A DNA stretch of 64,000 bases, taken from Mucilaginibacter rubeus. GTDB lineage: Bacteria; Bacteroidota; Bacteroidia; Sphingobacteriales; Sphingobacteriaceae. The stretch is from assembly GCF_014643835.1 (NCBI RefSeq), contig NZ_BMKD01000004.1, positions 310,001 through 374,000 on the forward strand, given 5' to 3'. A model generated the notes under the pieces. The model ran no database searches and had not been told where the DNA came from. It worked only from the letters and a program-made list of their open reading frames with translations. Positions 5,503-55,880 of this stretch are shown here, piece by piece. Both the position numbers and the translations under genes were made by a program. Position 1 is the first letter of the stretch, and each line of letters begins with the position of its first letter.

Positions 5503-5597
5503 AGTCTTAACTTCTAAGTCCGAAGCCGATAGTTTCTAAATCTGCATCATAATAATCCATGGTCAACTTCCGACTCAGGATTTAAGACTTTCGATTT
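5503..5597. repeat. Imperfect inverted word repeat (CTTAACTTCTAAGTCC type)
   Basis: The gap between the M23 gene and bactofilin reads AAAGTCTTAACTTCTAAGTC on one side and CTTCCGACTCAGGATTTAAG, then ACTTTCGA on the other. AAAGTCTTAA and TTAAGACTTT are exact reverse complements. It belongs to the scattered word-repeat class described in the findings. Confidence 0.55.
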
Positions 5598-5618
5598 AAC
5601 AAACTTCCTGCTTAGAAC

Positions 5619-6485
5619 TTATTTATTCAGGGTTAAAAAATTTACCGGGTTAACCGGCTTCCCGTTTTTACGTACTTCATAGTGCAGGTGTGTACCTGTG
5701 GAGTGCCCGGTTGAACCTACCTTGCCTATGTTATCACCAACGGTAACCTGCTGCCCTACCTTCACTTCAATTTTCGAAAGATGACCGTACAAGGTTTCCA
5801 GGTTGTTAATATGCTGAATCCTGACACATTTACCATAACCACCGGCCCATCCCGCAAAAACAACTTTGCCGCTGGCTGTACATTTTACTGCATCGCCCCG
5901 GTTACCTTTAAAATCAATACCAGGGTGAAACTCGGCATGCTCCGAATCAAAAGGGTCGCTCCTGTAACCAAAAAATGAGGTAAACGAGCTGATCCTCGGG
6001 TAGCCCATCGGGGTAAACGCAATGGTGCTTGTTAAATGTTTAAGGTAATCGTCATACAGGCTGTAAGCTTCGGTATCGGGTAGCTTTACCCCTTCCCTGT
6101 TGCCATCGCCCCCGGTACCCTTTACAGTAAAACCTTTAAGGCCGCGCCTTTTTAAATACTCATTTATAGTTTTAAGTTTAACCTCGATAGATTGAATGTA
6201 CGACTGGGCAGTACCCTGCGTATTTACCTCTGCTTTAACAACCGGCATGGTGCCTTTAAGTTTAGCTATCTGCGCCTGTAACTGTTGGTTTTCGGCCTCC
6301 TGCACAGCGCTTTTGTGATGCAGGTAAAACACCAAGCCACCAAGTACGGCAACAACAGCAGCTATGCTCCACGCGTAGTGTTTAAGCCTGTTAAGGTGCT
6401 TGGTTTTTATTTGTAATGATTTTGTATGCTGTTGATTTTTGTTGATGATAACAACAGTGCTAATATCAGGTGTTTTAAGTTTCAT
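5619..6485 (-). CDS. M23 (LytM-type) peptidoglycan endopeptidase, membrane anchored
   Basis: 288 aa from ATG 6485 (an upstream TTG at 6494 is less likely). The cytoplasmic tail is basic, then one transmembrane helix (about residues 38-56), a coiled coil (about 60-80) and a C-terminal M23 domain (about 170-280). Zinc ligands are all present: H187 and D191 in HPGIDF, and H266/H268 in HLHYE. The Tyr-Gly-His stretch LYGHLS is also kept. It should cut peptide cross-links in the periplasm and is predicted active rather than a degenerate LytM factor. Bactofilin follows on the same strand. Confidence 0.93.
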   Translation of the reverse strand: MKLKTPDISTVVIINKNQQHTKSLQIKTKHLNRLKHYAWSIAAVVAVLGGLVFYLHHKSAVQEAENQQLQAQIAKLKGTMPVVKAEVNTQGTAQSYIQSIEVKLKTINEYLKRRGLKGFTVKGTGGDGNREGVKLPDTEAYSLYDDYLKHLTSTIAFTPMGYPRISSFTSFFGYRSDPFDSEHAEFHPGIDFKGNRGDAVKCTASGKVVFAGWAGGYGKCVRIQHINNLETLYGHLSKIEVKVGQQVTVGDNIGKVGSTGHSTGTHLHYEVRKNGKPVNPVNFLTLNK

Positions 6486-6645
6486 CAAATTCAAAATAAA
6501 TTAGGGGTATGCAAGTTAAAAATTACTGTTAATAAAACAATATTAAATGTATGTAAACAGGTTATCAATGAAATAGCCTTCTACGTTAATCGTCAACCAA
6601 TTGTTATTATTGAGTTTTTATAAACGTAAACCAAGTATCATTTCT

Positions 6646-6653
6646 TATTTTTG
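6646..6653 (+). promoter_or_regulatory. Bacteroidota -7 element of the bacilliredoxin gene
   Basis: TATTTTTG matches TAnnTTTG, 31 nt before ATG 6685. A good -33 element was not seen. It also argues against starting the ORF at 6601, upstream of the promoter. Confidence 0.45.
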
Positions 6654-6684
6654 TAACACTGATTTTATTGTAAAGCAAAAAAAA

Positions 6685-7098
6685 ATGATGTATCCGGAAT
6701 ATTTAGTAGCCCCGATGCGGGAAGATCTGACCAGGGTTGGTTTTGAAGAATTAAAAGATGCCGATGCTGTAAAAAACGCTATTGAAAGCGAAGGTACAGT
6801 ATTTGTAATGGTTAACTCGGTATGTGGCTGTGCTGCGGCAAACGCGCGCCCGGCTGCTAAAATTGCCGCCGCAAACGGCAAACATCCTGATAAACTGGTA
6901 ACCGTTTTTGCAGGCATGGAAAAAGAAGCTGTTGATACCGCGCGTAACTATATGCTGCCTTACCCGCCATCGTCACCTGCCATGGCGCTGTTTAAAGATG
7001 GCAAGCTGGTGCATATGATTGAGCGCTACCAGATAGAAGGCCGCCCGGCACAAATGATTGCCGATAACCTGATTGACGCGTTTGAACAATACTGCTAA
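6685..7098 (+). CDS. BrxA/BrxB-type bacilliredoxin (DUF1094)
   Basis: 137 aa from ATG 6685 (an ATG also follows at 6688). The frame is open upstream to 6601, but the family begins at MYPEYLVAPMR and a promoter-like box lies in between. The active site C47-G-C49 in NSVCGCAAANARP is the bacilliredoxin CGC motif, in a thioredoxin-like fold. The family removes bacillithiol from S-bacillithiolated proteins after oxidative stress, with reduction by YpdA. Whether this organism uses bacillithiol or another thiol is not shown here. Monocistronic, closed by a strong terminator. Confidence 0.93.
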   Translation: MMYPEYLVAPMREDLTRVGFEELKDADAVKNAIESEGTVFVMVNSVCGCAAANARPAAKIAAANGKHPDKLVTVFAGMEKEAVDTARNYMLPYPPSSPAMALFKDGKLVHMIERYQIEGRPAQMIADNLIDAFEQYC

Positions 7099-7147
7099 TT
7101 GAGCTGAAGGCCGAAGGCTTAAAGCAGAAAGCTAAAAAACATAAAAG

Positions 7148-7177
7148 AGCTGAGGGAAAATCCTTCAGCTTTTTTTG
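7148..7177 (+). terminator. Terminator after the bacilliredoxin gene
   Basis: Stem AGCTGAGGGA / TCCTTCAGCT (one G-U pair) with loop AAA, then seven T residues. On the opposite strand a weaker T run follows, so it may also serve the convergent gene ending at 7236. Confidence 0.85.
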
Positions 7178-7180
7178 TTT

Positions 7181-7222
7181 TCAAAATCCGAAATCGAAAA
7201 TTCGATATCCGAAATCAAATTG
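7181..7222. repeat. Short word repeat (AAATCCGAAATC type)
   Basis: Tandem ATCCGAAATC words in direct and inverted order (TCGAAAATTCGA at the centre). The same words recur around the prs gene and tRNA-Gln near 55.7-55.9 kb. Confidence 0.5.
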
Positions 7223-7235
7223 ATGTCATTCTGCT

Positions 7236-7793
7236 TTATTTATCGTCGTCGTTTTTGTCCTCATCCTCTTCATCATCGTCAAAATCATTGAAGCTGCCCA
7301 TGTCTTCGTCATCCTCGTTAAATTCTCCAAAAAAGCGGTCTTCATCAAACATCAGCTCTTCCATCTTTTCCTGTTCGGGCGTACTGGTATCAAAGCGGAT
7401 GGCCCAATTGTCGGGGATATCATAGCTTTTATCAAATCCCCTGATCCATTCTACAAAAACCAGGCGAAACTCCTCTACCTTTTCCCTCATCAACTGTACA
7501 TAGTCCTCTTCATTAATTTTTACCATTGATGCAAAAGATACGGCATTAAACATATCCTGTACCGCAAGTTTAATGAGCACAGCATTTTGCATCCGCAGCG
7601 AATACAGGCTACCACCTTCGGCGCCGGCAATTTTTGCCTGGATAAGAGCGGCATTACTGCACATCTGTATGGCCAGATGTTCTTTCATGCTGTCTTCCTT
7701 TAATGATTCGGCAATTACATCCGCCAGGTCAAATAATTCCTGCGATTTTTGGTATACCGGGAGCTTTTCAAACTTTTCGAGTCTACGGGCCAT
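7236..7793 (-). CDS. Helical-bundle protein with acidic tail, unknown function
   Basis: 185 aa. Residues 1-120 are predicted almost wholly helical (KLPVYQKSQELFDLADVIAE, then further long amphipathic helices) and faintly resemble four-helix-bundle proteins of the S23/TIGR02436 kind, but I would not assign that family. Residues from about 145 on are very acidic and end in a run of Asp/Glu (DDDEEDEDKNDDDK), a disordered tail that could bind basic partners. Divergent from purD with about 78 bp between the starts. No catalytic motif seen. Confidence 0.75.
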   Translation of the reverse strand: MARRLEKFEKLPVYQKSQELFDLADVIAESLKEDSMKEHLAIQMCSNAALIQAKIAGAEGGSLYSLRMQNAVLIKLAVQDMFNAVSFASMVKINEEDYVQLMREKVEEFRLVFVEWIRGFDKSYDIPDNWAIRFDTSTPEQEKMEELMFDEDRFFGEFNEDDEDMGSFNDFDDDEEDEDKNDDDK

Positions 7794-7859
7794 GGGGTAA
7801 ATTTACTACTTATAACACAAGTAGCCTCATATATAGTATTAAAGGCTTATTAAAAAAAC

Positions 7860-7867: not shown

Positions 7868-7871
7868 CCGC

Positions 7872-9146: not shown

Positions 9147-9189
9147 GAGGTCATTGGGGCATTAGTCATTAAGTCATTTTTCTTTGCAA

Positions 9190-9359: not shown

Positions 9360-11429
9360 TTACTCCTGCACCGCGTCAATCCAATTGCCGTCGCCTTTAA
9401 TAATATTGATAAGCTCATCAAGCGCATTGGCCGAACTGATGTTTTTCTTTACCGCTTCTTTACCACGGTAAAGGGTAATTTTATCAGTACCAGAGCCTAC
9501 GTAACCGTAATCGGCATCAGCCATTTCACCGGGACCATTTACAATACAGCCCATGATGCCAATCTTTAACCCTTTAAGGTGACTGGTACGACTGCGGATC
9601 ATTTGGGTAGTAACCATCAGATCGAACAAGGTACGCCCACAGCTTGGGCAAGAGATATATTCCGTTTTAGAAATCCTTGACCGGGTAGCCTGCAAAATAC
9701 CAAAAGAAGTAGAAGTAATTACACTTGTAGGCAATTCAGGTGCATCTATCCAGATACCATCGCCAAAACCATCAACTAATAAAGCGCCGAGGTCAGTAGA
9801 GGCGTAGAGTTGGAGAAGAGTTTGTCCATGGTCCATGGTCCATGGACTATGGACTTTCTCACTTTCGGACTTTCCGACTTCCGGACTTTCCGACTCAAAA
9901 ACATAGCTTCTCTTCACAATCACGGGCACATCAAGTCCCAGTTCCTCCATTTTAAAAAAGAAGGAGCGTTGCTCGGCCATGCCGTGTAAAGCATCTGTTT
10001 CAAGTACCAACACCAGCGACTTATCAAGTTGAATTGATCCGAAATCTTCCGAATCAATATCAGCAGGTTTTAAATGTACAAGGTTCAGTTTTGATGAACG
10101 ATCGACATCGCCAATATATTCCTGTAAAGTAAATACCGGGTGGCAGTTGGTTTTATCGGCCAGTTTAAGCCAGGTATTATAATTATACAGTTGTTTTAAG
10201 TTGCCCGGTAAGGTAAATGAAGGCAATTCATCGGCCAGGTAAACAAAATCAACCGATTGCTCGGCCATGTTATACTTATCCAGCAAAGGCGAGTACAGGT
10301 AGCCCGCCTCGTTCAATACCGCCGGGTCTTTCAGGTTCTTTTTAGATAGGTCGACAACAACCCGCGGCACCAAATGCCCGCCTATGAAAGCGTTGGCCTC
10401 GTAGGTTTCACGTTTTTTATATTCGTAGGGGTTGTGTTTTGAAGGTAAAAGGTCAAAGGTTAAAGGCGAAAGGTTTTTAACTTCCGTAGCTACCTTTTGC
10501 CTTTCACCTTTCGCCTTTTCCCTCATAGTGTAACGTCGAACCAGCTCAATAGCGACCGGTGCTTCCGCTTCGGGCTCTTCGGTGAGGGACACGCGAACAG
10601 TATCACCGAGGCCATCCTCCAATAGTGTACCAATACCTACGGCAGACTTGATCCGGCCGTCTTCACCATCACCTGCTTCGGTTACGCCAAGGTGCAGCGG
10701 ATAATTCATTCCTTCGGCAACCATGGTTTCAACCAACAGGCGGTATGCCTGTACCATTACCTGCGGATTGCTCGACTTCATGGAGATCACGAGGTTATAA
10801 AAATTCAACTGCTCGCACATCCGCATAAACTCCATGGCCGATTCAACCATGCCCTGCGGGGTATCGCCGTAGCGGCTCATGATCCTGTCGCTCAGCGAAC
10901 CGTGGTTGGTGCCAATGCGCATAGCGGTGCCATATTCCTTACAAACTTTTACAAGCGGTGTAAATTTCTGGAAGATGCGTTCCAATTCGCCCTGGTACTC
11001 CAGGTCGGTATAATCAATCTGGTCGAATTTTTTTTTATCGGCGTAATTGCCGGGGTTTACGCGTACTTTTTCAACTATACGGGCAGCCACCTCGGCAGCA
11101 TTTGGGGTAAAGTGGATATCTGCAACCAAAGGCACCGTGTAGCCACGGGCGCGAAGCTGCTTTTTAATTTCGGCCAGGTTTTGGGCCTCTTTGATGCTGG
11201 GGGCTGTAATGCGCACGTATTCGCAACCGGCATCAACCATGCGGATGGATTGCTCAACCGTACCAATGGTATCCATGGTATCAGTAGTAGTCATGCTTTG
11301 GATCCGGATTGGATTATTCCCGCCCATAGGCACGTCGCCAATATTAACCTCGCGGGTAACAAAGCGTGAATATTCGGTTAACGAGTTACAATAACGGCCG
11401 GGCAGCACTTTAACAGCATCAGTATTCAT
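9360..11429 (-). CDS. ispG: (E)-4-hydroxy-3-methylbut-2-enyl-diphosphate synthase, long form
   Basis: 689 aa from ATG 11429 (a TTG at 11432 is adjacent). This [4Fe-4S] enzyme makes HMBPP in the MEP isoprenoid pathway. The TIM barrel spans about residues 20-300 (GGNNPIRIQSMTTTDT, VADIHFTP, RVNPGNYADKKKF). A large insert domain, as in plants, Chlamydia and Bacteroidota, covers about 300-560. The C-terminal cluster domain has CPSCGRTLFDL and GCIVNGPGEMADADYG, giving the three cluster cysteines. Oddity: two linkers of the insert (about residues 302-330 and 512-536) are coded by inverted word repeats of the sort otherwise seen between genes. The frame is kept, so the gene appears functional. Confidence 0.96.
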   Translation of the reverse strand: MNTDAVKVLPGRYCNSLTEYSRFVTREVNIGDVPMGGNNPIRIQSMTTTDTMDTIGTVEQSIRMVDAGCEYVRITAPSIKEAQNLAEIKKQLRARGYTVPLVADIHFTPNAAEVAARIVEKVRVNPGNYADKKKFDQIDYTDLEYQGELERIFQKFTPLVKVCKEYGTAMRIGTNHGSLSDRIMSRYGDTPQGMVESAMEFMRMCEQLNFYNLVISMKSSNPQVMVQAYRLLVETMVAEGMNYPLHLGVTEAGDGEDGRIKSAVGIGTLLEDGLGDTVRVSLTEEPEAEAPVAIELVRRYTMREKAKGERQKVATEVKNLSPLTFDLLPSKHNPYEYKKRETYEANAFIGGHLVPRVVVDLSKKNLKDPAVLNEAGYLYSPLLDKYNMAEQSVDFVYLADELPSFTLPGNLKQLYNYNTWLKLADKTNCHPVFTLQEYIGDVDRSSKLNLVHLKPADIDSEDFGSIQLDKSLVLVLETDALHGMAEQRSFFFKMEELGLDVPVIVKRSYVFESESPEVGKSESEKVHSPWTMDHGQTLLQLYASTDLGALLVDGFGDGIWIDAPELPTSVITSTSFGILQATRSRISKTEYISCPSCGRTLFDLMVTTQMIRSRTSHLKGLKIGIMGCIVNGPGEMADADYGYVGSGTDKITLYRGKEAVKKNISSANALDELINIIKGDGNWIDAVQE
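9823..9896. repeat. Word repeat inside ispG (CCATGGAC and CTTTCCGACTTCCGGA words)
   Basis: The plus strand reads TCCATGG three times, then CCATGGACTATGGAC, giving an inverted pair, followed by GGACTTTC / CCGACTT words three times. CCATGGACTAT and GACTATGGACTT recur at 54.75 kb, and a close match to ACTTCCGACTC at 5.57 kb. In ispG it encodes an acidic Ser/Glu-rich linker with ESPEVGKSESEKV. Confidence 0.65.
10441..10524. repeat. Inverted word repeat inside ispG (AAAGGTNAAAGG words)
   Basis: Left arm has AAAGG words five times (GGTAAAAGGTCAAAGG, GTTAAAGGCGAAAGG); right arm has the reverse complement (CCTTTTGCCTTTCACC, TTTCGCCTTTTCC). The arms could form a long imperfect hairpin in DNA or mRNA. 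It encodes the KGERQKVATEVKNLSPLTF linker. Confidence 0.65.
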
Positions 11430-11452
11430 CAATGATGGAAATTAATATAATG

Positions 11453-20544: not shown

Positions 20545-20604
20545 CTGGTCGAAGTTTAGCGAAGCGTAACTTCGTCCTGAAATGAGTTAAGCTTTCAGCT
20601 TAAC
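20545..20604. repeat. Two-hairpin REP, TGGTCGAAGTTTAGC family, copy 1
   Basis: CTGGTCGAAGTTTAGCGA, then GCGTAACTTCGTCCTG forms one hairpin; GTTAAGCT-TTC-AGCTTAAC forms a second. The same two hairpins occur at 59373-59433, and the first one inverted at 59507-59541. Confidence 0.75.
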
Positions 20605-20644: not shown

Positions 20645-20765
20645 CTGCAAACTGTTTACTCATAACTGCCAACTGGATATGGGCGTTACCTCCGGTCCGG
20701 GCTGTACACTCATACGCCTGCAGGCTTTACGCTCGCTGGCCGGTATCCGCTCCCATCCCTAACGC
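20645..20765. repeat. GC-rich repeat element next to an AACTGCCAACTG word repeat
   Basis: 20681-20765 begins GGGCGTTACCTCCGGTCCGG and ends CATCCCTAACGC. An inverted relative at 31841-31938 has GGGCGTTGCCTGCGGCCCGG and CAATCCCTAACGC. Just before it, 20648-20676 carries CTGCAAACTG and ATAACTGCCAACTG, a 14-mer also found at 33490-33517. Confidence 0.6.
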
Positions 20766-31802: not shown

Positions 31803-31938
31803 TGATTAGAGGTTGGAGATTAGAGGTTAGTGCGCAGGCCGCGTTAGGGATTGCAGTGGAAAGCCCACAGCGCGGGCGGGATTGAGGGATGGCAAAGCGA
31901 GGACTTGCAACGGAAAGCCCGGGCCGCAGGCAACGCCC
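31803..31938. repeat. Word repeat plus GC-rich element between hemB and hemL
   Basis: 31803-31832 holds GATTAGAGGTT twice. 31841-31938 is the inverted relative of 20681-20765, and internally shows two halves, GATTGCAGTGGAAAGCCC and GACTTGCAACGGAAAGCCC. It is far more GC-rich than its surroundings. Confidence 0.65.
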
Positions 31939-33423: not shown

Positions 33424-33517
33424 CCAGTTTGCAGTTGCCGGCGGGCAGTTTGCACTTAATATAACATTGCAAACTGACAAACTACTGCCAACTGAAAACT
33501 GATAACTGCCAACTGAT
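33424..33517. repeat. Inverted word repeat (AACTGCCAACTGA type)
   Basis: Left arm has CAGTTTGCAGTTGCC and GGCAGTTTGCAC, right arm has GCAAACTGACAAACTACTGC and CCAACTGAAAACTG, then ATAACTGCCAACTG. It fills the whole gap between hemL and the kinase gene. Confidence 0.7.
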
Positions 33518-34402: not shown

Positions 34403-35119
34403 ATGAATAATATGCCAAACAAAAAAAGGATTTTATTGGCCGAAGACGAAGAGCATTTGTTAGAAGCAATTAAGCTTAACCTTGAGCTGGAAGGCTATAA
34501 GGTAACTCCGGCTAAAAACGGCAAAAAAGCTTTACAGTTATTTAAGGAAGAACGTTTTAACCTGGTGATACTGGACGTAATGATGCCCGAAATTGACGGC
34601 TTTGTTGTCGCCGAAACCATCAGGCTTGAAAATACCGAAGTACCTATCATGTTCCTTACGGCTAAAAACACCAATGAGGACAAGATTTCGGGCTTAAAAA
34701 AAGGTGCTGATGATTATCTTACCAAGCCGTTTAACCTCGAGGAGCTTATTTTAAGGGTGAACAACCTGGTAAAACGCAGCTTAAAAGGCGAAGACCTGAA
34801 AGAGTTTAACAGCTATAAAATAGGTGATAAAACCATCCATTTTAACTCATTTGAGCTGGTTAACGAAGATGGCTCCATTACCGCCCTTACCAAAAAGGAA
34901 ACCATGCTGCTTAAATTGTTGATTGAGCGCCGTAATGACGCCGTATCGCGCGAGCAAATCCTGGAAACCGTTTGGAATTATGACGTTTATCCGTCAACCC
35001 GTACTATCGACAATTTTATCCTAACCTTCCGTAAGTACTTTGAACCAGATCCTAAAAACCCGGTTTATTTCCACTCCATTCGTGGCGTTGGCTATAAATT
35101 TACCGATAACCAGCATTAA
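34403..35119 (+). CDS. OmpR-family response regulator
   Basis: 238 aa. The receiver domain has acidic pair AEDEEH, phosphoacceptor D58 in NLVILDVMMPEIDG and the Lys of DDYLTKPFNLEEL. A winged-helix DNA-binding domain follows (ALTKKETMLLKLLIERRND, TRTIDNFILTFRKYF, HSIRGVGYKF). It is the partner of the kinase just upstream. Its stop overlaps the next ATG by one base (TAATG). Confidence 0.96.
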   Translation: MNNMPNKKRILLAEDEEHLLEAIKLNLELEGYKVTPAKNGKKALQLFKEERFNLVILDVMMPEIDGFVVAETIRLENTEVPIMFLTAKNTNEDKISGLKKGADDYLTKPFNLEELILRVNNLVKRSLKGEDLKEFNSYKIGDKTIHFNSFELVNEDGSITALTKKETMLLKLLIERRNDAVSREQILETVWNYDVYPSTRTIDNFILTFRKYFEPDPKNPVYFHSIRGVGYKFTDNQH

Positions 35120-35670
35120 TGTTCAGTAACAGGACACGTATATTCATTGCGTTTATATTTCTGCTGTCGTTAGGTATATTGGTATACTTTCATATTTATG
35201 AACTTGCGGCAGTTGCAGCTATGATGATCATCCTGCTTATTTGGGATTATTTCAGGCAGGGTACGTTGGTTGTAGCATCCAAACATTTTCATGTAAAGGA
35301 TTATGATAAAACTGCTGCCTCGTTAAACGAGATCATGAAACCCGAATGGCTCAGCAAAAACCGCCGGGGATATTATGAGTTTATATACGGCGGTTTATGC
35401 CTGCAAAGGCAGGATTTTGAAGGGGCAGAAATGCACTATGAAATAGCGGCACAATACCCCTTGCGTTCGGTTAACGACCACGTAGCCGCTTTGGTTAGTG
35501 TGGCCAATATCAGCATCAGGCGCGGTAATTTTGAAAAAGCCCAGGCCTATCTGCAATTAACTGAAAAACATAAAGAAAAAATAACTGCCAAAATGAGGGA
35601 AGTGATAAGCCGCCTTCAGCAGGAGATCAGGGAAGAGCCAGGAAAAAAGAGTCAAGAGACAAGAAAATAA
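35119..35670 (+). CDS. Membrane-anchored TPR-like protein, unknown function
   Basis: 183 aa. Two adjacent helices at the N-terminus (IFIAFIFLLSLGILVYF, LAAVAAMMIILLIWDYF), then a soluble helical part with TPR-like repeats (GGLCLQRQDFEGAEMHYEIA, then VANISIRRGNFEKAQAYLQL). Translation is coupled to the response regulator by a TAATG overlap, so it probably belongs to the same signalling unit. The last residues, PGKKSQETRK, run into a word repeat (35645-35757), which may have extended or replaced the original C-terminus. Confidence 0.85.
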   Translation: MFSNRTRIFIAFIFLLSLGILVYFHIYELAAVAAMMIILLIWDYFRQGTLVVASKHFHVKDYDKTAASLNEIMKPEWLSKNRRGYYEFIYGGLCLQRQDFEGAEMHYEIAAQYPLRSVNDHVAALVSVANISIRRGNFEKAQAYLQLTEKHKEKITAKMREVISRLQQEIREEPGKKSQETRK

Positions 35671-35757
35671 GAAATAAGACGGCAGGAGTCAGGAAGCAAG
35701 AATTATTAAGGGAGACGTTCTCTTCTTGGTTCTTGATTCTTGACCTCTTGCATCTAA
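35645..35757. repeat. Inverted word repeat (AGTCAAGAATCAAGA type)
   Basis: Left arm AGAGTCAAGAGACAAGAA and GGAGTCAGGAAGCAAGAATT; right arm TCTTCTTGGTTCTTGATTC and TTGACCTCTTGC. It covers the 3' end of the TPR gene and the gap before hemE. Confidence 0.7.
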
Positions 35758-40104: not shown

Positions 40105-40247
40105 CGCTGATTTAGGTGATTACGTTGATTTCGCTGATTATTTTTGATTGTAAATGATTATAATCTTCAAGCGAACTCTCATCTCCAAAATGATCAGTGT
40201 AATCCCAAAAAAGAAATCAACGCAATCAGCGTAATCATAACCATCAA
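40105..40247. repeat. Inverted word repeat (GATTACGCTGATT type)
   Basis: Left arm GGTGATTACGTTGATTTCGC, then TGATTATTTTTGATTG; right arm AAATCAACGCAATCAGCG, then TAATCATAACCATCAAC, the reverse complement in kind. It ends 5 nt before the promoter box of the ABC gene. Confidence 0.7.
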
Positions 40248-46735: not shown

Positions 46736-46818
46736 ATTGTTGGTGACAACACCGACAATTGCTAAAAAATTAGGGACGCGTTAGATACTACGCCGTTGTT
46801 GGTGTTGTCACCAACAAC
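46736..46818. repeat. Two REP palindromes downstream of the RAYT gene
   Basis: 46736-46759 has arms TTGTTGGTG / CACCGACAA around ACAA. 46795-46818 is the perfect palindrome GTTGTTGGTG - TTGT - CACCAACAAC, opposite in loop orientation, 3 nt past the RAYT stop. Confidence 0.9.
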
Positions 46819-47383: not shown

Positions 47384-47536
47384 CTTGGTGTTGTCGCCAG
47401 TAAAGTTGTTGGTGACAACACCAACAACGGCGCAATATTCAGTCATTGGGAAAACTATTACTAAAATCGCTTGTGCTTAATACTTACAGCAGAAGATAAT
47501 ACATGGCACAGAGTTGTTGGTGACAACACCAACAAC
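47384..47536. repeat. REP palindromes upstream of the RAYT gene
   Basis: Perfect 10-bp-arm units GTTGTTGGTG - ACAA - CACCAACAAC at 47405-47428 and 47513-47536, both followed by GGC; a degenerate unit (CTTGGTG - TTGT - CGCCAG) at 47384-47400. Confidence 0.9.
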
Positions 47537-48083: not shown

Positions 48084-50555
48084 TTAACCATTGCCGCCGC
48101 CATTGCTTTTTCCTCCGCCTTTGGTATCATCGTTATTAATGCCACGCTGGTTCTTTTTGATATCGCCATTCAATTTACCAAACTTAAAGTTTAATCTCAC
48201 GGCAAAATTCCTGTAGCGGTTATGGTATAATGATTCCTGGTCAAAATCAACTGTATGTGTGGTCGATCTGAATGTACGGTATCTACTGTATGGGTTGTTG
48301 GCTACCGCTGATATGGTTAGCTTTTTGTTCAGGAACTCTTTAGATAGTACGTAGGAGTTAAAAATAAAATTGCTCGATTTACCTTGTAAGGTAACATCAC
48401 CGCTAAAGAAACCGGCATCAAGCCCTAAACGGTAGCCACCATCAAACTTGTAACCAATATTGGCAAAAGCGTTGCCGGTGTAACCATCGTTTTTGTAAAA
48501 CTGACCATTATAAGTACCTTTTAACCATACATGCGAAATTTGCCCGTTGATGTTAACCGTAAACTTCTTAGTGATAGAATAATTGGTATTAAGGTTTAAC
48601 CCTAACGAACGGTTACTGCCCAGGTTTTGATAGGTGGTAAAAGTAACCGTGTCGATATGATCGCCCATGTTGTTTTGAATCAGGCTGGTCACATTTTGGA
48701 TAGCATTATTGGAGAATGCATAGCTCAAACCAACATTGATTGATCCTTTTGAGAAATTACTATAGTTCAACTCAAAAGTATTGTTCAGCTCCGGCTTCAG
48801 ATCGGGATTACCTGTGCTGATAAATTTGGGGTTCGATTTATCGATAAATGGGTTTAATTGGTAAATGCCTGGCCTTTGAATGCGCTGGGTAAAGCCCAAA
48901 CTGATGCTGCTGCTTTTCATAGAGCGCTGAACAGAAACCGATGGAATAAAGTTATTATAGCTTTTATCAAGCGGCGTGCCTGTAAACATGGCATTTACCT
49001 GCGTATGCTCTAAACGCAAGCCCGCCTTGCCTGTCCATTTATTCATCTTTAACTGATACGAGTTATAAGCACTGTACACATCCTGGTGATAGTCGAACTC
49101 GCCGGTTTGCCCTGCATTGACGTTATATACCGAACTGGTTGAATCTTTGTCTTCGCGTCTGTAGTCGCTGAAATTGTTCCGCAGGATCACTTTACCGCCG
49201 GCCTCAATACTGATTTTCTTCAATGGATAAGCATAATCTAACTGGAAAGTATGCTCACGGTTACCTGCATTATTATATTGCCTGAAATCGGGCTGAAGTG
49301 CATTGTAATAATTAACCCTGTCCGAAAACTGGTTATCTGTGAAATTTTTACTCGGTCCGTAGCTGTATTTGTAGGATAATGTTAGCAATTCATCTTTATG
49401 CCCTTTAAACCCTAACTGATAGTTGACAGACGCATCAAGTCCCTGATCATGATTATAGCTATTGCTCAACAGGTTATAGCCTTGGGTCAAATCGCCGGCG
49501 GCGTTTGTCTGGGCTGATCGCTGTGATCCGTCCTGATTAAATTCGCCGTGAAAAAATTCAAATGAACCGGTAAGCAGGTTCAAGGTGTCTATCTCATAGC
49601 TTAGCTCGGCATTGGCGTAACGATACTTGCCGCCAAATGAGTTACTTCCGGTTTGTAATATCTCTGATTCAGGATTAAAAAATGTTTGTTTTGTAGTTGA
49701 GGTATTGGTGTTGCGCTTCTGATTACCAAAACCCGCATACCCCGAAACCCCGAACTTGCCTTGTTTGGCTGTCATGTTCAGGTTATACCCCGGCCCCCAA
49801 ACACTGTTATAGCGCATGTTGACACTGCCATTATAGCCCTGATCCGCGTTCTTTTTAGTGATGATGTTAATTATACCTGCCAAGCCCTCCGCATCATATT
49901 TTGCAGGCGGCGTAGTGATCACCTCAATCTTTTCGATGTTGGTAGCCGGCATTGCTTTTAACACGTCTGATGGGTTTTTAGCCATCAACGCCGATTCTTT
50001 TCCGTTGATCAGGATCTTGTATTTGCCGCTGCCTTTTAACTTGATGTTATCATCGCCGTCCACAGCTAAAAGCGGCACTTTACGCATCATATCCAATGCA
50101 GATACCGCTTTACTTTCCGGATCGGCGGTAACATCATAACTGAGGCGGTCAACCTCCTGTTTCATTACAGGCTTTACAGCGGTAATGGTTACCTCGTTCA
50201 ACTGTTTGCTTGAAGGGGCTACCAGGATCCGCCCGGCATCAAACGTTTTACCATCCATTTTTACAGGGAGCACTTTGGTTGCATATCCTACTGAAGCTAC
50301 TACTAACTGATACGTTTTACCTTCGGGAGCTTTCAACTCAAAGCTGCCGTCATCTTTGGCAAGCGTACTTTTTACCGGAGTTTTGGTAGCAGCATCCTGC
50401 AGCGCAACAGTGCCATACCCCAATGGCTTGTTGGTTGCCGAATCGATCACGGTACCTTTAACGGTTATATTTTGAACAGGAACCGGTGCGGCAGCCTGGG
50501 CCATAGCCATGCCCGTGACAAAACAGCATAGCACTGTTAGTAGAAATTGTTTCAT
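48084..50555 (-). CDS. TonB-dependent receptor of the OMP_b-brl_3 type, paralogue A
   Basis: 823 aa from ATG 50555 (MKQFLLTVLCCFVTGMAMAQ is the signal peptide; the frame is open 18 bp further). A carboxypeptidase-regulatory-like domain (KGTVIDSATNKPLGYGTVAL) is followed by a plug (KVPLLAVDGDDNIKLKGSGK, IEKIEVITTPPAKYDAEGLA, GIINIITKKN) and an 'outer membrane beta-barrel family' barrel (QRSMKSSSISLGFTQRIQRP, GIYQLNPFIDKSNP). The C-terminus carries the odd tail KKNQRGINNDDTKGGGKSN after the last strand. Probably a transporter of small ligands; the substrate is unknown. It has a close paralogue immediately upstream. Confidence 0.94.
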   Translation of the reverse strand: MKQFLLTVLCCFVTGMAMAQAAAPVPVQNITVKGTVIDSATNKPLGYGTVALQDAATKTPVKSTLAKDDGSFELKAPEGKTYQLVVASVGYATKVLPVKMDGKTFDAGRILVAPSSKQLNEVTITAVKPVMKQEVDRLSYDVTADPESKAVSALDMMRKVPLLAVDGDDNIKLKGSGKYKILINGKESALMAKNPSDVLKAMPATNIEKIEVITTPPAKYDAEGLAGIINIITKKNADQGYNGSVNMRYNSVWGPGYNLNMTAKQGKFGVSGYAGFGNQKRNTNTSTTKQTFFNPESEILQTGSNSFGGKYRYANAELSYEIDTLNLLTGSFEFFHGEFNQDGSQRSAQTNAAGDLTQGYNLLSNSYNHDQGLDASVNYQLGFKGHKDELLTLSYKYSYGPSKNFTDNQFSDRVNYYNALQPDFRQYNNAGNREHTFQLDYAYPLKKISIEAGGKVILRNNFSDYRREDKDSTSSVYNVNAGQTGEFDYHQDVYSAYNSYQLKMNKWTGKAGLRLEHTQVNAMFTGTPLDKSYNNFIPSVSVQRSMKSSSISLGFTQRIQRPGIYQLNPFIDKSNPKFISTGNPDLKPELNNTFELNYSNFSKGSINVGLSYAFSNNAIQNVTSLIQNNMGDHIDTVTFTTYQNLGSNRSLGLNLNTNYSITKKFTVNINGQISHVWLKGTYNGQFYKNDGYTGNAFANIGYKFDGGYRLGLDAGFFSGDVTLQGKSSNFIFNSYVLSKEFLNKKLTISAVANNPYSRYRTFRSTTHTVDFDQESLYHNRYRNFAVRLNFKFGKLNGDIKKNQRGINNDDTKGGGKSNGGGNG

Positions 50556-50670
50556 AATTGCGATTTTGGTCATAAGACGTTTAAGATACCCGGGCGTGAC
50601 ACCAAAAAGTATGCGTTTAACACTTTTTAACGTTTGCCACTGCCAGGTAACGGATTAGTTACTAAAGTTG

Positions 50671-53127
50671 TTAATTGCGGCTTCCGCTGCTGGTATCATC
50701 ATTATTAATACCACGTTGATTTTTCTTTATGCTACTGTTAAGCCTGCCGAACTTGTAGCTCAGGCTCACGTTAATGGTGCGGTAAAAGTTGTTGTTAGCT
50801 GTATAAGTTTCAAAGCCATCACCTTTGGTATAAAAGTCGAGCTTGTTGAATTTTTTGAAAGGATTGTTAACATTTACTGATAGTGTGGCCTTTTCCTTAA
50901 ACATGGTTTTGGTACCGCTGATGGAGCTAAAGAAAAAATAATTATCCTTTCCTTGCAGCAATACATAACGGCTGTCATACCCAATGTTTAAACCGGCGCG
51001 GTAGCCACCATCAAATTTGTAGCTGGTATAAGTAAAAATGTGTCCCTGGTTACCACTGTTGCTGAAAAGCGAGCCGTTGTAATAGCCCTTCAGCCAAACA
51101 AACAGTAATTCGGCATTTATATTCACGTTCAGTTTTTTGGTGATTGGATAATTCACATTCAAATCAAAACCCCAGTTTTTGTTCGAGCCTACGTTAGCGT
51201 AAGTTGTAGTAGTAACTCCTGCTGTATCAACCGAGGCTAAATTTTGCACCGTGTTATTGGCAAACGAGTAATTGGTGCTCAGGTTGATGGAGCCTTTGGC
51301 AAAATTGCTGTAGCCTAATTCAAAATTATTGGTTACCGCGGCCCTTAGATTAGGATTACCAACGTTACGGTATTGCGGGTTGGATTGGTCGGTATATGGG
51401 TTAAGCTGGTAAATACCGGGGCGTTGGATGCGTTGGGTAAAACCAAGTGTGAGACTGCTACTTTTCAGGCTCCGTTGTACCGATACCGAGGGCACAAAAT
51501 TATCATAGCTTTGGTTAACGGTTGGTTTCCCTACCGCGAAATCGGCGTTAACCGTGGTATGTTCCAACCGCATACCGCCTTTAAAAGCCCATTTGGTTAG
51601 CTTAACCGAATAGGAGTTGTACACACCGTAAATATTTTGTTTATAGGTAAAATTATTCACCTGCGCTGTATCGGCGTGATACTCATTATCCACGTCACTT
51701 TTTACATCAGTATTAAACTGGCTATAGTTATTACGCAGGGTTGCTTTACCACCGGCCTCAACGGTAAGAATTTTTGAAGGCTGGATATAGTCTAACTGAA
51801 AAGCATGCTGCTTTGAACCTGAGTTATTGTATTGCCTGTAATCTTTAGGGACACCTTCGCCGCTAAAGTCATTACCTTTTGTGGCTTCGCTGGTTTGAAG
51901 ATTGTTATTATAATTGTATTTGTAGGATACGGTAAGGAGCTGCTCCTTGTTTTTTTTAAAGCCTAACTGGTAATTCAGCCCCACATCCGATCCTTTAAAT
52001 TCGCCTGTGCCATTGTTAAACAAACGGTAAAATTGCGTAACAGCATCGGCGCTATCGCGTTGGGTAGTAACCTGATAATTATGCTGATTGCTTTTGCCAT
52101 GATAAAAATCAAACATGCCTGTAATCAGGTTCAGGGTATCTACCTCATAACTTAACTCACCGCTGCCATACAGGTTTTTGCCAGTGTTGCCCCTTGTACC
52201 TGTTTGACTAAGTGTTGACTGCGGATCGGTTGACTGTGGCTTAAAAAAAGTGGTCATGTTCTCGAACGATGACGTACGCAAGGGCCTGTAGTTATAACCG
52301 GCATAGCCGCTAAAACCAAACTTCCCTTGCTTCAAGGTAAGGTTAACATTGCCCCGTTCACCATAAACACTATTGTACCCCGTATTGATACTTACGTTAT
52401 ACCCCTGGTCCGCATTTTTTTTGGTGATGATATTGATGATCCCCGCAAGGCCTTCGGCATCATATTTTGCGGGTGGTGTGGTGATTACTTCTATCTTTTC
52501 GATATTGGCAGCGGGCATGGATTTCAGCACATCCGATGGGTTCTTAGCCATCATGGCCGATTCTTTTCCATTGATCAGTATCTTGTAATTATCATTACCC
52601 CGTAGCTTAATAGCGTCGTTGCCATCAACAGATAACAAAGGTACTTTCCGGATCATATCCAGCGCGGTGATAGACTTACTTTCCGGGTCGGCGGTTACAT
52701 CATAGCTTAGGCGGTCGACCTCCTGTTTCATTACCGGCCTAACGGCGGTAACGGTAACTTCTTTCAATTGTTTGCTCGATGCCGAAAGCAGGATCCGGCC
52801 TGCATTAAATGTATTATTTGTAAGTTTTACCGGGATAGTTTTGGTGGCGTAACCAATAAAAACAGCAACTAACTGGTAAGTTTTACCTTCGGGTGCTTTT
52901 AGTTCAAAACTGCCATCGTCTTTAGCCAGCGTGCTTTTTACCGGCGCTTTGGTGGCGGCATCCTGGAGCGCAACAGTAACATATCCCATAGGTTTGTTAT
53001 TAGCCGAATCAATGATAATACCTTTTACAGTAATATTAGGAACTGCCGGAGCGACGGGAGCTTTTGTTTGAGCAAATAAGAAGGTAGAAAAGCAACAGCA
53101 AAGTACCGTTAGCAGGATTTGTTTCAT
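50671..53127 (-). CDS. TonB-dependent receptor of the OMP_b-brl_3 type, paralogue B
   Basis: 818 aa from ATG 53127. Same layout as its neighbour and plainly its tandem duplicate: signal MKQILLTVLCCCFSTFLFAQ, KGIIIDSANNKPMGYVTVAL, the identical plug text NIEKIEVITTPPAKYDAEGL, the barrel text QRSLKSSSLTLGFTQRIQRP, and the C-terminal KKNQRGINNDDTSSGSRN. The plug region is almost identical while the barrel loops differ, as expected if ligand specificity has diverged. 115 bp separates the two genes, so co-transcription is possible, though no shared promoter is clear. Confidence 0.94.
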   Translation of the reverse strand: MKQILLTVLCCCFSTFLFAQTKAPVAPAVPNITVKGIIIDSANNKPMGYVTVALQDAATKAPVKSTLAKDDGSFELKAPEGKTYQLVAVFIGYATKTIPVKLTNNTFNAGRILLSASSKQLKEVTVTAVRPVMKQEVDRLSYDVTADPESKSITALDMIRKVPLLSVDGNDAIKLRGNDNYKILINGKESAMMAKNPSDVLKSMPAANIEKIEVITTPPAKYDAEGLAGIINIITKKNADQGYNVSINTGYNSVYGERGNVNLTLKQGKFGFSGYAGYNYRPLRTSSFENMTTFFKPQSTDPQSTLSQTGTRGNTGKNLYGSGELSYEVDTLNLITGMFDFYHGKSNQHNYQVTTQRDSADAVTQFYRLFNNGTGEFKGSDVGLNYQLGFKKNKEQLLTVSYKYNYNNNLQTSEATKGNDFSGEGVPKDYRQYNNSGSKQHAFQLDYIQPSKILTVEAGGKATLRNNYSQFNTDVKSDVDNEYHADTAQVNNFTYKQNIYGVYNSYSVKLTKWAFKGGMRLEHTTVNADFAVGKPTVNQSYDNFVPSVSVQRSLKSSSLTLGFTQRIQRPGIYQLNPYTDQSNPQYRNVGNPNLRAAVTNNFELGYSNFAKGSINLSTNYSFANNTVQNLASVDTAGVTTTTYANVGSNKNWGFDLNVNYPITKKLNVNINAELLFVWLKGYYNGSLFSNSGNQGHIFTYTSYKFDGGYRAGLNIGYDSRYVLLQGKDNYFFFSSISGTKTMFKEKATLSVNVNNPFKKFNKLDFYTKGDGFETYTANNNFYRTINVSLSYKFGRLNSSIKKNQRGINNDDTSSGSRN

Positions 53128-53231
53128 AAGGTTATTTAGGTTTACAAGACGTAAGTACACACCCGTGTGTTACAACACGAATTACGATTTGAACGGAATT
53201 TTAACTAAAATATTAGTTTGTAACGACGTTG

Positions 53232-53792
53232 TTACTTATTATAACGAGTCATGGTAAGTTCGGTTCCAATAGTTGCAAAACTCTTCACCATCTCTATCGA
53301 ACGATCGATCAATGCAGGCAGTTCGGGCTGTTCGTCTTTATCAAACGGGCTCAGCACAAAATCAACCTGGCGGCCTTTGGGGTAATTATCACCAATGCCA
53401 AAGCGCAAACGGGCGTAGTTATTGTTGCCAAGCACCTCTTCAATATTTTTAAGGCCGTTATGCCCGGCGGCACTGCCTTTGGGTTTTAAGCGTAAGGTAC
53501 CCAGCGGCAGGGCAAGGTCATCCACGATAACTAAAACATTCCCCACCGGAATTTTCAGGTCTTTCATCCAGTAGCTCAGGGCTTTTCCGCTCAGGTTCAT
53601 GTAGGTAGTAGGTTTAATGAGGCAAAGCGTACGGCTTTTGAACGATACCTCGGTATAATAAGCTAAGCGTGAGTTTTGAAACCTCGCTCCCTCTTGCCTG
53701 GCCAGTTCATCCAACACCATAAAACCTATATTATGCCGTGTATCTGCATACTCCGGACCAATATTTCCTAAACCTACAATTAAATATTTCAT
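53232..53792 (-). CDS. pth: Peptidyl-tRNA hydrolase
   Basis: 186 aa. Frees tRNA from stalled peptidyl-tRNA. Conserved features: GLGNIGPEYADTRHNIGFMV with the catalytic His in RHNIG, PTTYMNLSGKAL with the Asn, VIVDDLALPLG with the Asp, and GSAAGHNGLKNI. Usual Pth length. It lies upstream of the TonB receptor genes on the same strand but separated by about 105 bp; rplY upstream ends in its own terminator, which is not the usual pth-rplY operon order read-through. Confidence 0.97.
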   Translation of the reverse strand: MKYLIVGLGNIGPEYADTRHNIGFMVLDELARQEGARFQNSRLAYYTEVSFKSRTLCLIKPTTYMNLSGKALSYWMKDLKIPVGNVLVIVDDLALPLGTLRLKPKGSAAGHNGLKNIEEVLGNNNYARLRFGIGDNYPKGRQVDFVLSPFDKDEQPELPALIDRSIEMVKSFATIGTELTMTRYNK

Positions 53793-54003
53793 GCCCCCTG
53801 GCCCCCTAAAGGGGGAATTATGAAGCTATCCAAACCAACAATACAATCGTCATTGCGAGGTACCAAGCAATCGCAAACTGTACAGGGCGGACCTCCTAAT
53901 CGGGGATTGCTTCGTACCTCGCAATGACGTGATGGTTATCTTTCAGAAATGCTCCGAGTAATTAATTAAATTTTTATGCGAAGATATTGTTTATTGCTCA
54001 AAC
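53793..54003. repeat. Gap between rplY and pth with TCATTGCGAG-family copy 3
   Basis: 53848-53929 is the element: CGTCATTGCGAGGTACCAAG at the left and GATTGCTTCGTACCTC, GCAATGACG at the right, with a centre ACAGGGCGGACCTCC shared with copy 1. 53793-53818 has GCCCCCTGGCCCCCTAAAGG, a partly palindromic C-rich/G-rich word, and CCCCCTTCAGGGGG recurs at 54056-54069. Confidence 0.75.
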
Positions 54004-54038
54004 AAAAACAGCGATAGAATTACTCTACCGCTGTTTTT
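54004..54038 (-). terminator. Terminator of rplY
   Basis: 10-bp stem AAAAACAGCG / CGCTGTTTTT enclosing TAGA...TCTA. Symmetric A and T tracts would allow use in both directions; rplY ends 40 nt upstream of it on the minus strand. Confidence 0.8.
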
Positions 54039-54077
54039 AATTTCACCTCTTGTTCCCCCTTCAGGGGGTTAAGGGGG

Positions 54078-54662
54078 TTATTTTTTACCTTGAGCTGCTT
54101 CCTGCTCTGCCTGACGTAATGCACGTGAGGTAGTTACAGAAACAATGGTATCTTCTTTAGCGTTGGTGATCACTAAGTTATCTAATTTAATATCAGATAC
54201 TTTTACTGATTTACCAACTTCAAGAGATTCGATGCTTACTTCAATAGCATCAAGATGATCTTTAGGAAGCGCTTTGATACGCAGTTTCCTTAATTTTTGA
54301 ACCAGCTTACCACCTACTTTAACACCTGGAGAAGTACCGGTTAATTTTACCGGGATCTCGATGGTGATAGGTTTTTTCTCATCTAACAATAAAAAGTCAA
54401 TGTGAGTGATTTTTTCAGTTAGTGGGTGGAACTGAATGTCCTGGATGATAGCTTGTGATTTAACACCGGCAATTTCAAGATCGATGAAATGAACAACCGG
54501 AGTATAAACAACGGCCCTCAAATCAGCTGCGGACACAGAAAAGTGGGTCTGGGTAGCACCACCATAAAGAACTGCAGGCACCTGGCCATTGTAACGCAGC
54601 TCTTTCGCGTCTCTTTTCCCTACGTTCTCTCTTAGAGAACCGCTAATAGCAATTGATTTCAT
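54078..54662 (-). CDS. rplY: 50S ribosomal protein L25, CTC form
   Basis: 194 aa, the long CTC form with an N-terminal L25 domain that binds 5S rRNA (IAISGSLRENVGKRDAKELR, VPAVLYGG, THFSVSAADL) and a C-terminal TL5/CTC domain (PVKLTGTSPGVKVGGKLVQK, LPKDHLDAIEVSIESLEVGK). The tail is Gln/Glu/Ala-rich. It follows prs on the same strand, as is common, with an inverted word repeat between them. Confidence 0.96.
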   Translation of the reverse strand: MKSIAISGSLRENVGKRDAKELRYNGQVPAVLYGGATQTHFSVSAADLRAVVYTPVVHFIDLEIAGVKSQAIIQDIQFHPLTEKITHIDFLLLDEKKPITIEIPVKLTGTSPGVKVGGKLVQKLRKLRIKALPKDHLDAIEVSIESLEVGKSVKVSDIKLDNLVITNAKEDTIVSVTTSRALRQAEQEAAQGKK

Positions 54663-54689
54663 TTTTATTTATTTGTTTATTTATTTGTA

Positions 54690-54780
54690 GTCCATGGTCG
54701 ATAGTCAATAGACCATAGATTTATTTTTATTCTAACTAATCAACCACAGCCATGGACTATCGACCACTGACTATGGACTT
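54690..54780. repeat. Inverted word repeat (CCATGGACTATGGAC type)
   Basis: Left arm GTCCATGGTCGATAGTC, then AATAGACCATAG; right arm CCATGGACTATCGACC, then ACTGACTATGGAC. It lies between prs and rplY. CCATGGACTAT and GACTATGGACTT also occur inside ispG. Confidence 0.7.
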
Positions 54781-54784
54781 AAAA

Positions 54785-55729
54785 CTAATCCACCTTAAAC
54801 AAGGTACTAATCGAACCATGTTCGTTTACGTTGCTTATCGCTTTTGCAAACAGTTCGGCGGTTGAAAGCACCCTTATTTTAGGGCTGCTTTGTTTAAGCG
54901 GGATTGTATCTGTAACTATCAGTTCGGTTAATGCCGAGTTTTCGATAGTTTCATAAGCTTTACCTGATAATACCGGATGTGTACAAACCGCGCGTACGCT
55001 GCGTGCACCACGCTCCATGATCAGTCCGGCTGCTTTTGCCAATGTACCCGCGGTATCGCAAATGTCATCAATCAGTACTATGTCCTGATCGGTAACATCC
55101 CCTATCAGCGTCATGGCTTCAATTTCGTTAGCACGTTTACGGCGTTTATCGCAAATTACCACTTCGGCATTAAAGAACTTGGCAAAGCTGCGGGCCCTGT
55201 ATGAACCGCCCATATCAGGCGATGCAATGGTAAGGTGACCTAAGCCAAGGCTTTTAATATAAGGTACAAAAATGATAGAAGCATCCAGGTGATCAACCGG
55301 AACATCAAAAAATCCCTGGATCTGCGCTGCGTGCAAATCCATGGTCATGATGCGGTTAATGCCGGCTGCAACTAACAGGTTGGCTACCAGTTTTGCACCA
55401 ATGGCAACACGTGGTTTATCTTTCCTGTCCTGGCGCGCCAAACCAAAATAAGGTATAACGGCGTTTACATAATGTGCTGAAGCGCGGCGGGCGGCATCGA
55501 TCATCATGAGTAACTCCATTAAATTATCGGTAGGCTGATGGGTAGACTGGATCAGGAAAACATCACATCCCCTTACAGATTCATTAAAATGCGGCTGGTA
55601 TTCGCCATCGCTAAAACGCGATATCACAACTTCGCCTAACTCACGACCATAAGCATCAGCTATAAGATGCGCAAGTTCCTGCGAACCTGATCCTGAAAAT
55701 AATTTAACCGGGTTAAATTGTAAGGGCAT
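54785..55729 (-). CDS. prs: Ribose-phosphate pyrophosphokinase
   Basis: 314 aa. It makes PRPP from ribose-5-phosphate and ATP, feeding purine, pyrimidine, NAD, His and Trp synthesis. Typical text: FSDGEYQPHFNESVRGCDVF, IPYFGLARQDRKDKPRVAIG, TMDLHAAQIQGFFDVPVDHL, SPDMGGSYRARSFAK, and the PRPP loop VLIDDICDTAGTLAKA. Standard class I length. Between the tRNA-Gln gene and rplY on the minus strand. Confidence 0.98.
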   Translation of the reverse strand: MPLQFNPVKLFSGSGSQELAHLIADAYGRELGEVVISRFSDGEYQPHFNESVRGCDVFLIQSTHQPTDNLMELLMMIDAARRASAHYVNAVIPYFGLARQDRKDKPRVAIGAKLVANLLVAAGINRIMTMDLHAAQIQGFFDVPVDHLDASIIFVPYIKSLGLGHLTIASPDMGGSYRARSFAKFFNAEVVICDKRRKRANEIEAMTLIGDVTDQDIVLIDDICDTAGTLAKAAGLIMERGARSVRAVCTHPVLSGKAYETIENSALTELIVTDTIPLKQSSPKIRVLSTAELFAKAISNVNEHGSISTLFKVD

Positions 55730-55734
55730 TTTGA

Positions 55735-55880
55735 TTTTGAATTTGGGATGTTCGATTTCGGATTTTACCTGTCCTTCACCGTTGATCTTTTACAAATACA
55801 ACCGTTATAAAACACAATTCGGATTTCAAGTTTTCCAATCAGAATAAATCCGAAATTGAAAATCCGAAATCCGAATTTTA
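55735..55880. repeat. Inverted word repeat (AAATCCGAAATCC type)
   Basis: Left arm TTGATTTTGAATTTGGGATG, then TTCGATTTCGGATTT; right arm AATCAGAATAAATCCGAAAT, then TGAAAATCCGAAATCCGAAT. It fills the gap between prs and tRNA-Gln. Confidence 0.65.

Follow-up and report, generated by a model that had tools for sequence, protein, structure and literature searches.

Hairpins of inverted seven-base words occupy conserved sites with differing words in Mucilaginibacter rubeus and its relatives

Arrays of degenerate seven-base units have been described in several bacteria. Two Xanthomonas genomes contain 70 and 75 convergent pairs of arrays of GGGAATC, or (GGGANTN)n, heptads, and Nostoc contains GGGGA(C/T)T repeats (PMC4692102). 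The P6b hairpin of the Nostoc tRNA-Leu(UAA) intron consists of heptanucleotide repeats that fall into two unrelated classes, and repeated replacement of the entire P6b region, from Class II to Class I, was inferred, with the same role suggested for both words (PMC4476775; the hairpin is also treated in PMC3488679). In Beggiatoaceae, TAACTGA heptamer arrays precede start codons, and these arrays are also present in some Bacteroidetes (PMC4679880). Here, we analyzed a 64,000-nucleotide stretch of Mucilaginibacter rubeus DNA (contig NZ_BMKD01000004.1, positions 310,001 to 374,000; the whole stretch is referred to as the window, and positions are counted from its first letter) and related genomes, which contain hairpins whose two arms are a tandem run of a degenerate seven-base word and the reverse complement of that run. 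In the open-access literature searched, no description of such repeats in Mucilaginibacter or Pedobacter was found.

The present repeats join these known systems, with many words, many sites, a fixed arm order and swapping on a tree. Like the Xanthomonas and Nostoc heptads, they consist of degenerate seven-base units with some positions fixed and form inverted pairs in one order, the G-rich arm coming first in those systems. In contrast, the description there is of a single word family in each genome, whereas 16 of our word clusters comprise two or more loci; word exchange at a conserved site and placement within genes, both known here, are not described in the accessible part of that report. 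Thus, the seven-base tandem unit and fixed opposite arrays recur here, with some single-arm loci and one contrary locus, while the restriction to one word per genome does not. The P6b hairpin resembles the present elements in its complementary seven-base arms, its unrelated words at the same site and its whole replacement, all of which have their counterpart here; it differs in being one intron locus with two classes and a one-way shift, as against many loci, about a dozen words, and both gaps and protein loops. The TAACTGA arrays are also heptamer direct repeats ahead of start codons, and TAACTGA is an AACTGNN variant of the present words; however, as far as the accessible text of that report goes, they represent one exact word, nearly always in direct repeats, with one inverted set in a Beggiatoaceae genome.

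On balance, we favor the interpretation that the elements are competing, dispersed families of heptad hairpins that displace one another, each as a complete unit, at permissive sites. The architecture, the period, the polarity, the dispersal of words, the conserved sites with swapped words and, in the closest pairs, the borders confined to the spacer are direct observations, which are described below. In the mechanism that we propose, roughly a dozen families, each with a degenerate seven-base word on one arm, its reverse complement on the other and a usual arm order, would settle where insertion is tolerated, mostly in stop-to-start gaps between co-directional genes and in two loops of IspG. 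An occupied site would tend to remain occupied, and its occupant would be swapped whole for another word, for a copy of a repetitive extragenic palindrome (REP) or for a CCTCC-type hairpin; replacement may sometimes proceed one arm at a time. Array length would then shift in seven-base steps, probably via slippage. The swaps may represent copying from elsewhere in the genome, either transposition-like or mediated by single strands or microhomology, and the hairpin may be tolerated or mildly useful regardless of its sequence.

The detector combined the score of the strongest inverted match with that of a tandem match overlapping it, with word-type calls as a strict subset. An exact 7-mer register detector was too weak (23 real versus 12.3 shuffled at threshold 5) and was replaced. 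For each of the 11 positions at which the original prediction placed inverted tandem words, 400 dinucleotide shuffles of the same stretch served as the comparison. At eight of these (5.5, 9.83, 10.45, 33.45, 35.7, 40.1, 54.7 and 55.8 kb) no shuffle was comparable (0/400, p = 0.0025), while the claim did not hold at the other three. At 7.2 kb, the AAATCCG word is a lone arm, the AAATCCGAAATC array at 7184..7216; its inverted copy was not found in the locus test, the p value of 0.04 coming from another pair of sequences. The same test found no inverted partner for the AACTG array (CAAACTG..AACTGCCAACTGG) at 20648..20676 (20.65 kb, p = 0.19) or for the GATTAGAGG array that follows hemB at 31804..31830 (31.8 kb, p = 0.28); both look single-armed, and the 31.8-kb locus has AAAGG arms in G001, G018 and L041.

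Shuffled sequence, the control named in the original prediction, did not yield comparable loci on a larger scale either. With a score of at least 20, the window gave 14 calls, compared with 1 call summed over eight shuffled windows; eight of the 14 are word loci, and the other six are inverted repeats of the ordinary kind, including two copies of REP GTCATTGCGAG. Strict word-type calls numbered seven in the window versus none in one shuffled window. In a 2.25-Mb sample, 238 strict loci were found versus 4 in one shuffled copy (225 without duplicates), a total that includes many orthologous copies and a few singletons that are perhaps not word loci. This sample consists of the window, the collinear stretches of five relatives, 79 named loci and 400 kb of G014; three named loci that repeat G001, G018 and G009 were dropped as duplicate rows in several counts. 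The relative G001 is collinear with the window at a mean identity of 90% over matched pieces (many at 92–96%), and the corresponding values are 86% for G018 and 84% for G014. That structure holds the class together, as originally proposed, is borne out by an architecture in excess of shuffles and by sites that are kept while their words differ.

The tandem unit is mainly seven bases, and some words have other lags. Of the 225 calls, 153 had a lag of 7, 14 or 21; in shuffled sequence, this held for 16 of 124 tandem calls, a set taken without the inverted-match filter. The seven positions vary unequally: conservation at the least conserved position was 0.234, versus 0.335 under a uniform-substitution null (standard deviation 0.011, 207 arrays). 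An earlier null inflated this effect because one altered unit produces two mismatches at the same position, and the substitution null gave a smaller effect. The units are degenerate and lie head to tail without spacers, in agreement with the earlier exclusion of clustered regularly interspaced short palindromic repeats (CRISPR). Single-linkage clustering, which merges some words, grouped the 238 loci into 33 clusters, of which 17 have a single locus and the other 16 have two or more; five clusters hold 179 of the 238. Word cores include CAGTT/AACTG, AAAGG/CCTTT, AAAGC/GCTTT, CAAGA/TCTTG, GTCCATGG, TTCATGG, AAATCCG, AGTATCAAG, GAGATTT, AAGTC, GATTAGAG and GGTTCG, roughly a dozen families in total as judged by eye. 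Thus, the word does differ between many loci, but it is not each locus's own: families recur across loci, the genome and the genus.

Arm order is, as a rule, fixed within a word family. Among 555 same-genome pairs of different loci, 31 share at least four 6-mers, 27 on the same side and four on opposite sides; by eye, the four opposite-side pairs join different words. AAAGG came first in 7/7 array pairs in G001 among the 100 of 127 matches listed, and CAAGA came first in 15/15 TCTTG pairs among the matches listed from 18 genomes; these pairs, on opposite strands and at most 200 bases apart, were counted by hand, and some TCTTG pairs may be orthologous. Across the 238 loci, the first arm contains more G than C in 179, less in 40 and equal amounts in 19. 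Outside the family, the AACTG loci L141, L156 and L163, which have both arms, place CAGTT first. Where both arms can be scored, they mostly carry the same word: same versus different counts were 29 versus 9 of 63 gaps between hemB and hemL (25 not scorable), 18 versus 4 of 40 between hemL and the kinase gene, 17 versus 2 of 38 between g351 and hemE, and 0 versus 3 of 35 between g393 and g401, with rough labels assigned by regular expression and the remaining gaps not scorable; the four different hemL-kinase arms and the three g393-g401 cases look like label errors.

This polarity bears on a local origin, in which slippage would expand a random seed into tandem words and quasi-palindrome template switching would produce the inverted ones. 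The differences in word between many loci, with 17 of 33 clusters confined to a single locus, are what such a process would produce, as are the seven-base steps, the array lengths that differ between sister species at 35.7 kb, and the focusing of variation on few of the seven positions. However, the arm order is fixed, identical words recur at many loci and in many genomes, and clear arm-to-arm correction was not found within a word class, which leaves a local origin quite improbable. Hairpin-primed synthesis from an arbitrary seed, a mechanism suggested in the original prediction, is disfavored because both arm orders would be expected, while mostly one was found (27 versus 4 pairs; 22/22 among the pairs listed; L143 is contrary). 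Slippage, the other suggestion, is plausible for array length.

The pattern (AAAGGNN)x3 has 127 matches in G001, versus 0 for the reversed control. Of 296 genomes from the phylum, 41 contain it; beyond the genus, matches are few, often a single perfect array, and the control also matches in some genomes. The pattern (AACTGNN)x3 was found in 9 of 20 genomes and is most frequent in G020, of another family (57 matches, control 1). The pattern (TCTTGNN)x3 was found in all nine genus genomes searched (control 0) and in three of nine others, the control exceeding the real count in G020. Strict loci also occur in other families, with 11 versus 1 shuffled in 192.9 kb of G020 and 12 versus 0 in 172.7 kb of G024, densities that are biased since the stretches were partly picked for a known word match; the words at these loci are partly their own. 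Locus L145 (G018:C14 ~637535-637662) is a perfect single-arm array of at least 17 AACTGCA units, broken by a run of N, and thus a pure form of the otherwise degenerate word.

Comparison of gaps between sister genomes, together with ispG and the hemL-kinase tree, revealed that a locus often keeps its place while carrying a different word; this was the check that had originally been proposed. The word differs in at least one sister genome at 9.83, 31.8, 33.45, 40.1 and 54.7 kb. The CAGTTTG/AACTGNN hairpin at 33424..33517 (plus strand) takes up all of the hemL-kinase spacer between the stop and start codons. In place of the GATTACGCTGATT hairpin at 40117..40237 (plus strand, nine-base lag), a CATGATT..AGGATTTAAGG hairpin is found in G014 and G018, and the GTCCATGGTCGATAGTC hairpin at 54688..54773 (minus strand), in the gap adjoining the ribosomal L25 gene, is represented by TTCATGG words in G014 and a CCTCTCC-type hairpin in G018. 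The word is unchanged at 5.5 and 7.2 kb, where one relative has anchors; the 5.5-kb element (5501..5591) comprises inverted AAGTC-type words, AAAGTCTTAACTTCTAAGTCCGAAG and its reverse complement, in the gap between two open reading frames (ORFs) on the minus strand, scores 22 with a weak tandem part and is conserved in G001.

In up to 75 genomes, the stems between hemB and hemL are of the AAAGG/AAAGC, TCAAAA, GTC-AT, REP, CCTCC and further types, and those between hemL and the kinase gene are of the CAGTT/AACTG, CCTCC, GGTTCG, TATCAAG and TTCAT types; 53 of 75 hemB-hemL gaps and 33 of 70 hemL-kinase gaps contain a stem. The hemL-kinase states were placed on a hemL tree of 71 rows, obtained by a quick search with 39 of 68 inner branches strongly supported; loci with a readable kinase neighbor were retained, which excluded 11. 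The spacer is occupied in 39 of 71 rows by six hairpin types (A 19, CC 14, J 2, F 2, D2 1 and Q 1) and unoccupied in 32 (21 short and 11 non-word spacers). Over these eight states, the occupant changed at least 25 times on the tree, at least 14 of them among the 39 occupied rows, while presence versus absence of an element changed at least eight times. In one clade of 20 rows, the spacer is occupied in 20/20 by four types (11, 5, 2 and 2). A Markov model that allows direct swaps fits better than one in which every change goes by way of an empty spacer (twice the log-likelihood difference, 2 x delta lnL, = 37.3, or 26.2 when the 11 non-word spacers are set as missing).

The closest swapped pairs locate the borders of the exchange. 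The window (CAGTT) and G001 (CCTCC) are sisters in the hemL tree; over 100 bases each, the hemL end is 94% and the kinase end 98% identical, and the spacers look unrelated save for the last few bases. In the swapped pair L053 and L054, the flanks are 97% and 98% identical and the spacers are unlike. Nine pairs were compared, eight with different words, and none showed a marked dip in identity beside the spacer; in the six remaining swapped pairs, the flank identity was about equal to that in the rest of the genes. The exchange therefore seems to be confined to the spacer. An unlikely but more specific reading would be a sequence-blind cassette exchange, in which a process removes a hairpin spacer, whether a stop-start gap or a protein loop, and installs another from a shared seven-base dictionary with the flanks untouched; the dictionary and the arm order would then be the substrate rule of a putative single-strand DNA enzyme.

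Several points weigh against the replacement of whole hairpins by competing families. The likelihood ratio in favor of direct swaps may be inflated by clades unequal in site use, and the hemL-kinase states on which it rests were scored by eye, some being half elements. Neither an enzyme, nor a target duplication, nor a clean recent word insertion was seen. Six sister-genome pairs contained five indels; none was a clean new word hairpin, and one was a 40-base duplication inside a word element. The excess of word sharing within genomes over that between them is weak (p = 0.04 and 0.03). The AACTG locus L143 (G026, other family) has the opposite arm order, with AACTG first, and mosaic arms exist (different words in 9/63 hemB-hemL gaps, by crude labels). 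Finally, the word is constant in all sister genomes compared at 10.45, 35.7 and 55.8 kb. In the AAGAGTC/TCTTGNN hairpin before hemE (35646..35752, plus strand; detected arms 35676-35702 and 35723-35749), the array beyond the detected arms was delimited by eye and its left end overlaps the upstream ORF; G001, G014 and G018 share this word and differ in array length. The GATTTCGGATTT/AAATCCG hairpin at 55741..55870 (minus strand), between the tRNA-Gln gene and the phosphoribosyl pyrophosphate synthetase gene, is conserved in the same three relatives.

The left AAGAGTC array of the 35.7-kb element (35646-35670) overlaps the end of the ORF 35119-35670, whose stop codon seemingly derives from the word array.

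REPs were considered as a source of the hairpins, and that REPs do not explain them, as the original prediction stated, was confirmed for the words: the arrays vary in length and unit, unlike one conserved palindrome of 20–40 bp, and REP GTCATTGCGAG is separate. However, REP and CCTCC-type hairpins fill the same gaps in relatives, and they are therefore part of the same turnover. REP GTCATTGCGAG follows the left AAAGG/AAAGC array in 10 of the 14 REP-bearing hemB-hemL gaps. The loci with a REP (TTGCGAG core) behind this array are L041, L042, L044, L047, L050, L051, L058, L068, L111 and G018; a word arm lies beyond the REP in L041, L042, L047, L051 and G018, as if the REP had been inserted into an older word hairpin.

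The shared gaps also raise the possibility of REP-like elements mobilized by Y1 transposases of the REP-associated tyrosine transposase (RAYT) type. Y1_Tnp proteins were found in 11 of 12 genomes searched, and the fixed polarity of the word families resembles REP architecture. On either side of subclass 2.6 genes in Bacteroidetes, atypical secondary structures are reported, copies of which also occur in other places (PMC6006769). In contrast, the number of Y1_Tnp proteins does not track that of words, since G017 (one weak match) and G003 (none) both have words, and when 1.5-kb flanks were inspected at 30 Y1_Tnp loci of the 53 listed matches, about three (L171, L184 and L199) had a word-like hairpin, at irregular places. 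Mobilization by these transposases is thus very unlikely.

The elements might instead be RNA hairpins under selection, the fold being needed in mRNA for 3' end stability, translation decoupling or attenuation, with the sequence irrelevant and the words free to drift or be replaced. Occupancy that outlasts word changes accords with this idea. Predicted single-strand RNA folds of the eight window loci are strong (z from -2.6 to -7.6). In co-directional gaps, the element starts at a median of 5 nt past the stop codon and ends at a median of 10 nt ahead of the start codon; 163 of 865 co-directional gaps are occupied, compared with 18 of 221 divergent and 15 of 162 convergent gaps, counts based on simple ORF calls in the same region resampled in many species. 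Wobble pairing was evaluated in gaps of 40 to 500 bases. G-U exceeded A-C among stem mismatches in the g351-hemE gap (43 versus 20), but the relation was reversed in the hemL-kinase gap (10 versus 24), and the pooled counts on the transcribed strand were 169 versus 146 (p = 0.22; seven co-directional gaps, 113 elements). Arm co-evolution within a word class was absent in seven of eight tests (lowest p = 0.054), and the eighth (p = 0.0002) concerned a mixed class. An apparent co-evolution across mixed word classes, with p at most 0.0004 in five of six gaps, disappeared within class in those seven tests. Given the pooled wobble result, and as the arms of one species did not clearly pair better with each other than with arms from other species of the same class and gap, neither strong selection on an RNA stem nor arm-to-arm copying is seen at the present resolution. 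Moreover, relatives without the element exist (21 short and 11 non-word of 71 hemL-kinase spacers), and two elements lie inside a coding sequence. We consider selected RNA hairpins a doubtful explanation.

As the original prediction had noted, two elements, at 9.83 and 10.45 kb, lie within a gene; both are in ispG (9360..11432, minus strand; GcpE family, Pfam PF04551, E = 5e-126). Site 1, at 10443..10523 (minus strand), has AAAGGNN heptads opposite CCTTT, a score of 34.5 and the strongest fold (z = -7.6); in G014, its left arm is partly decayed. In all 25 sequences from the genus, the in-frame loop at this site is longer, with 35–64 residues as against 28–32 in five of six outgroups from other families; the sixth, G024, has 37 residues with its own GTTTCAG hairpin. 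By eye, at least seven words occur at site 1: AAAGGC, AAAGC, AAGTC, GACCATGG, AACCCAC, CAAGA and halves of CCTCC hairpins. Most of the genus sequences carry such a recognizable word; some relatives have mixed arms, and a clear word is absent in G011 and G034. Site 2, at 9824..9896 (minus strand), consists of palindromic GTCCATGG heptads and an adjoining GGACTTTCC array; it is short or altered more often than site 1 and carries other words in relatives. Rickettsia palindromic elements are in-frame palindromic repeats inside protein-coding genes and belong to longer, sequence-conserved families, not to heptad words. The ispG elements are similar in being in-frame repeats within a gene and, by this general description, are set apart from them.

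These results present structure that is maintained despite the exchange of sequence, at several sites, among them an essential enzyme gene, in some 70 genomes with a tree. They make testable the competition and replacement of bacterial intergenic repeat families at one site, as well as the reason for which heptad units in a single arm order appear repeatedly, in Bacteroidota, Cyanobacteria and Xanthomonas. In this group, ordinary sequence evolution is not a valid reading of aligned spacers or of inserts in protein loops.

The window further contains hemCD, hemB, hemL, hemE, a kinase gene, a response regulator gene, purD, ispG and others. Palindromes of GTTGTTGGTGACAACACCAACAAC are repeated in neighboring gaps at 46737-46817 and 47405-47536, and a GTTGTTGGTGTTGTCACCAA sequence that may be compared with them is present in L051 too. 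A CTGGTCGAAGTTTAGCGA..GCGTAACTTCGTCC repeat occurs at 20545-20577 and 59373-59541, the latter region (59.4 kb) with a 58-base inverted pair, and was seen also in G014. Two adjacent ORFs of 829 codons on the minus strand (48084-50573 and 50671-53160) are an apparent tandem duplication, and in relatives their cross matches with the other copy show 65–76% identity.

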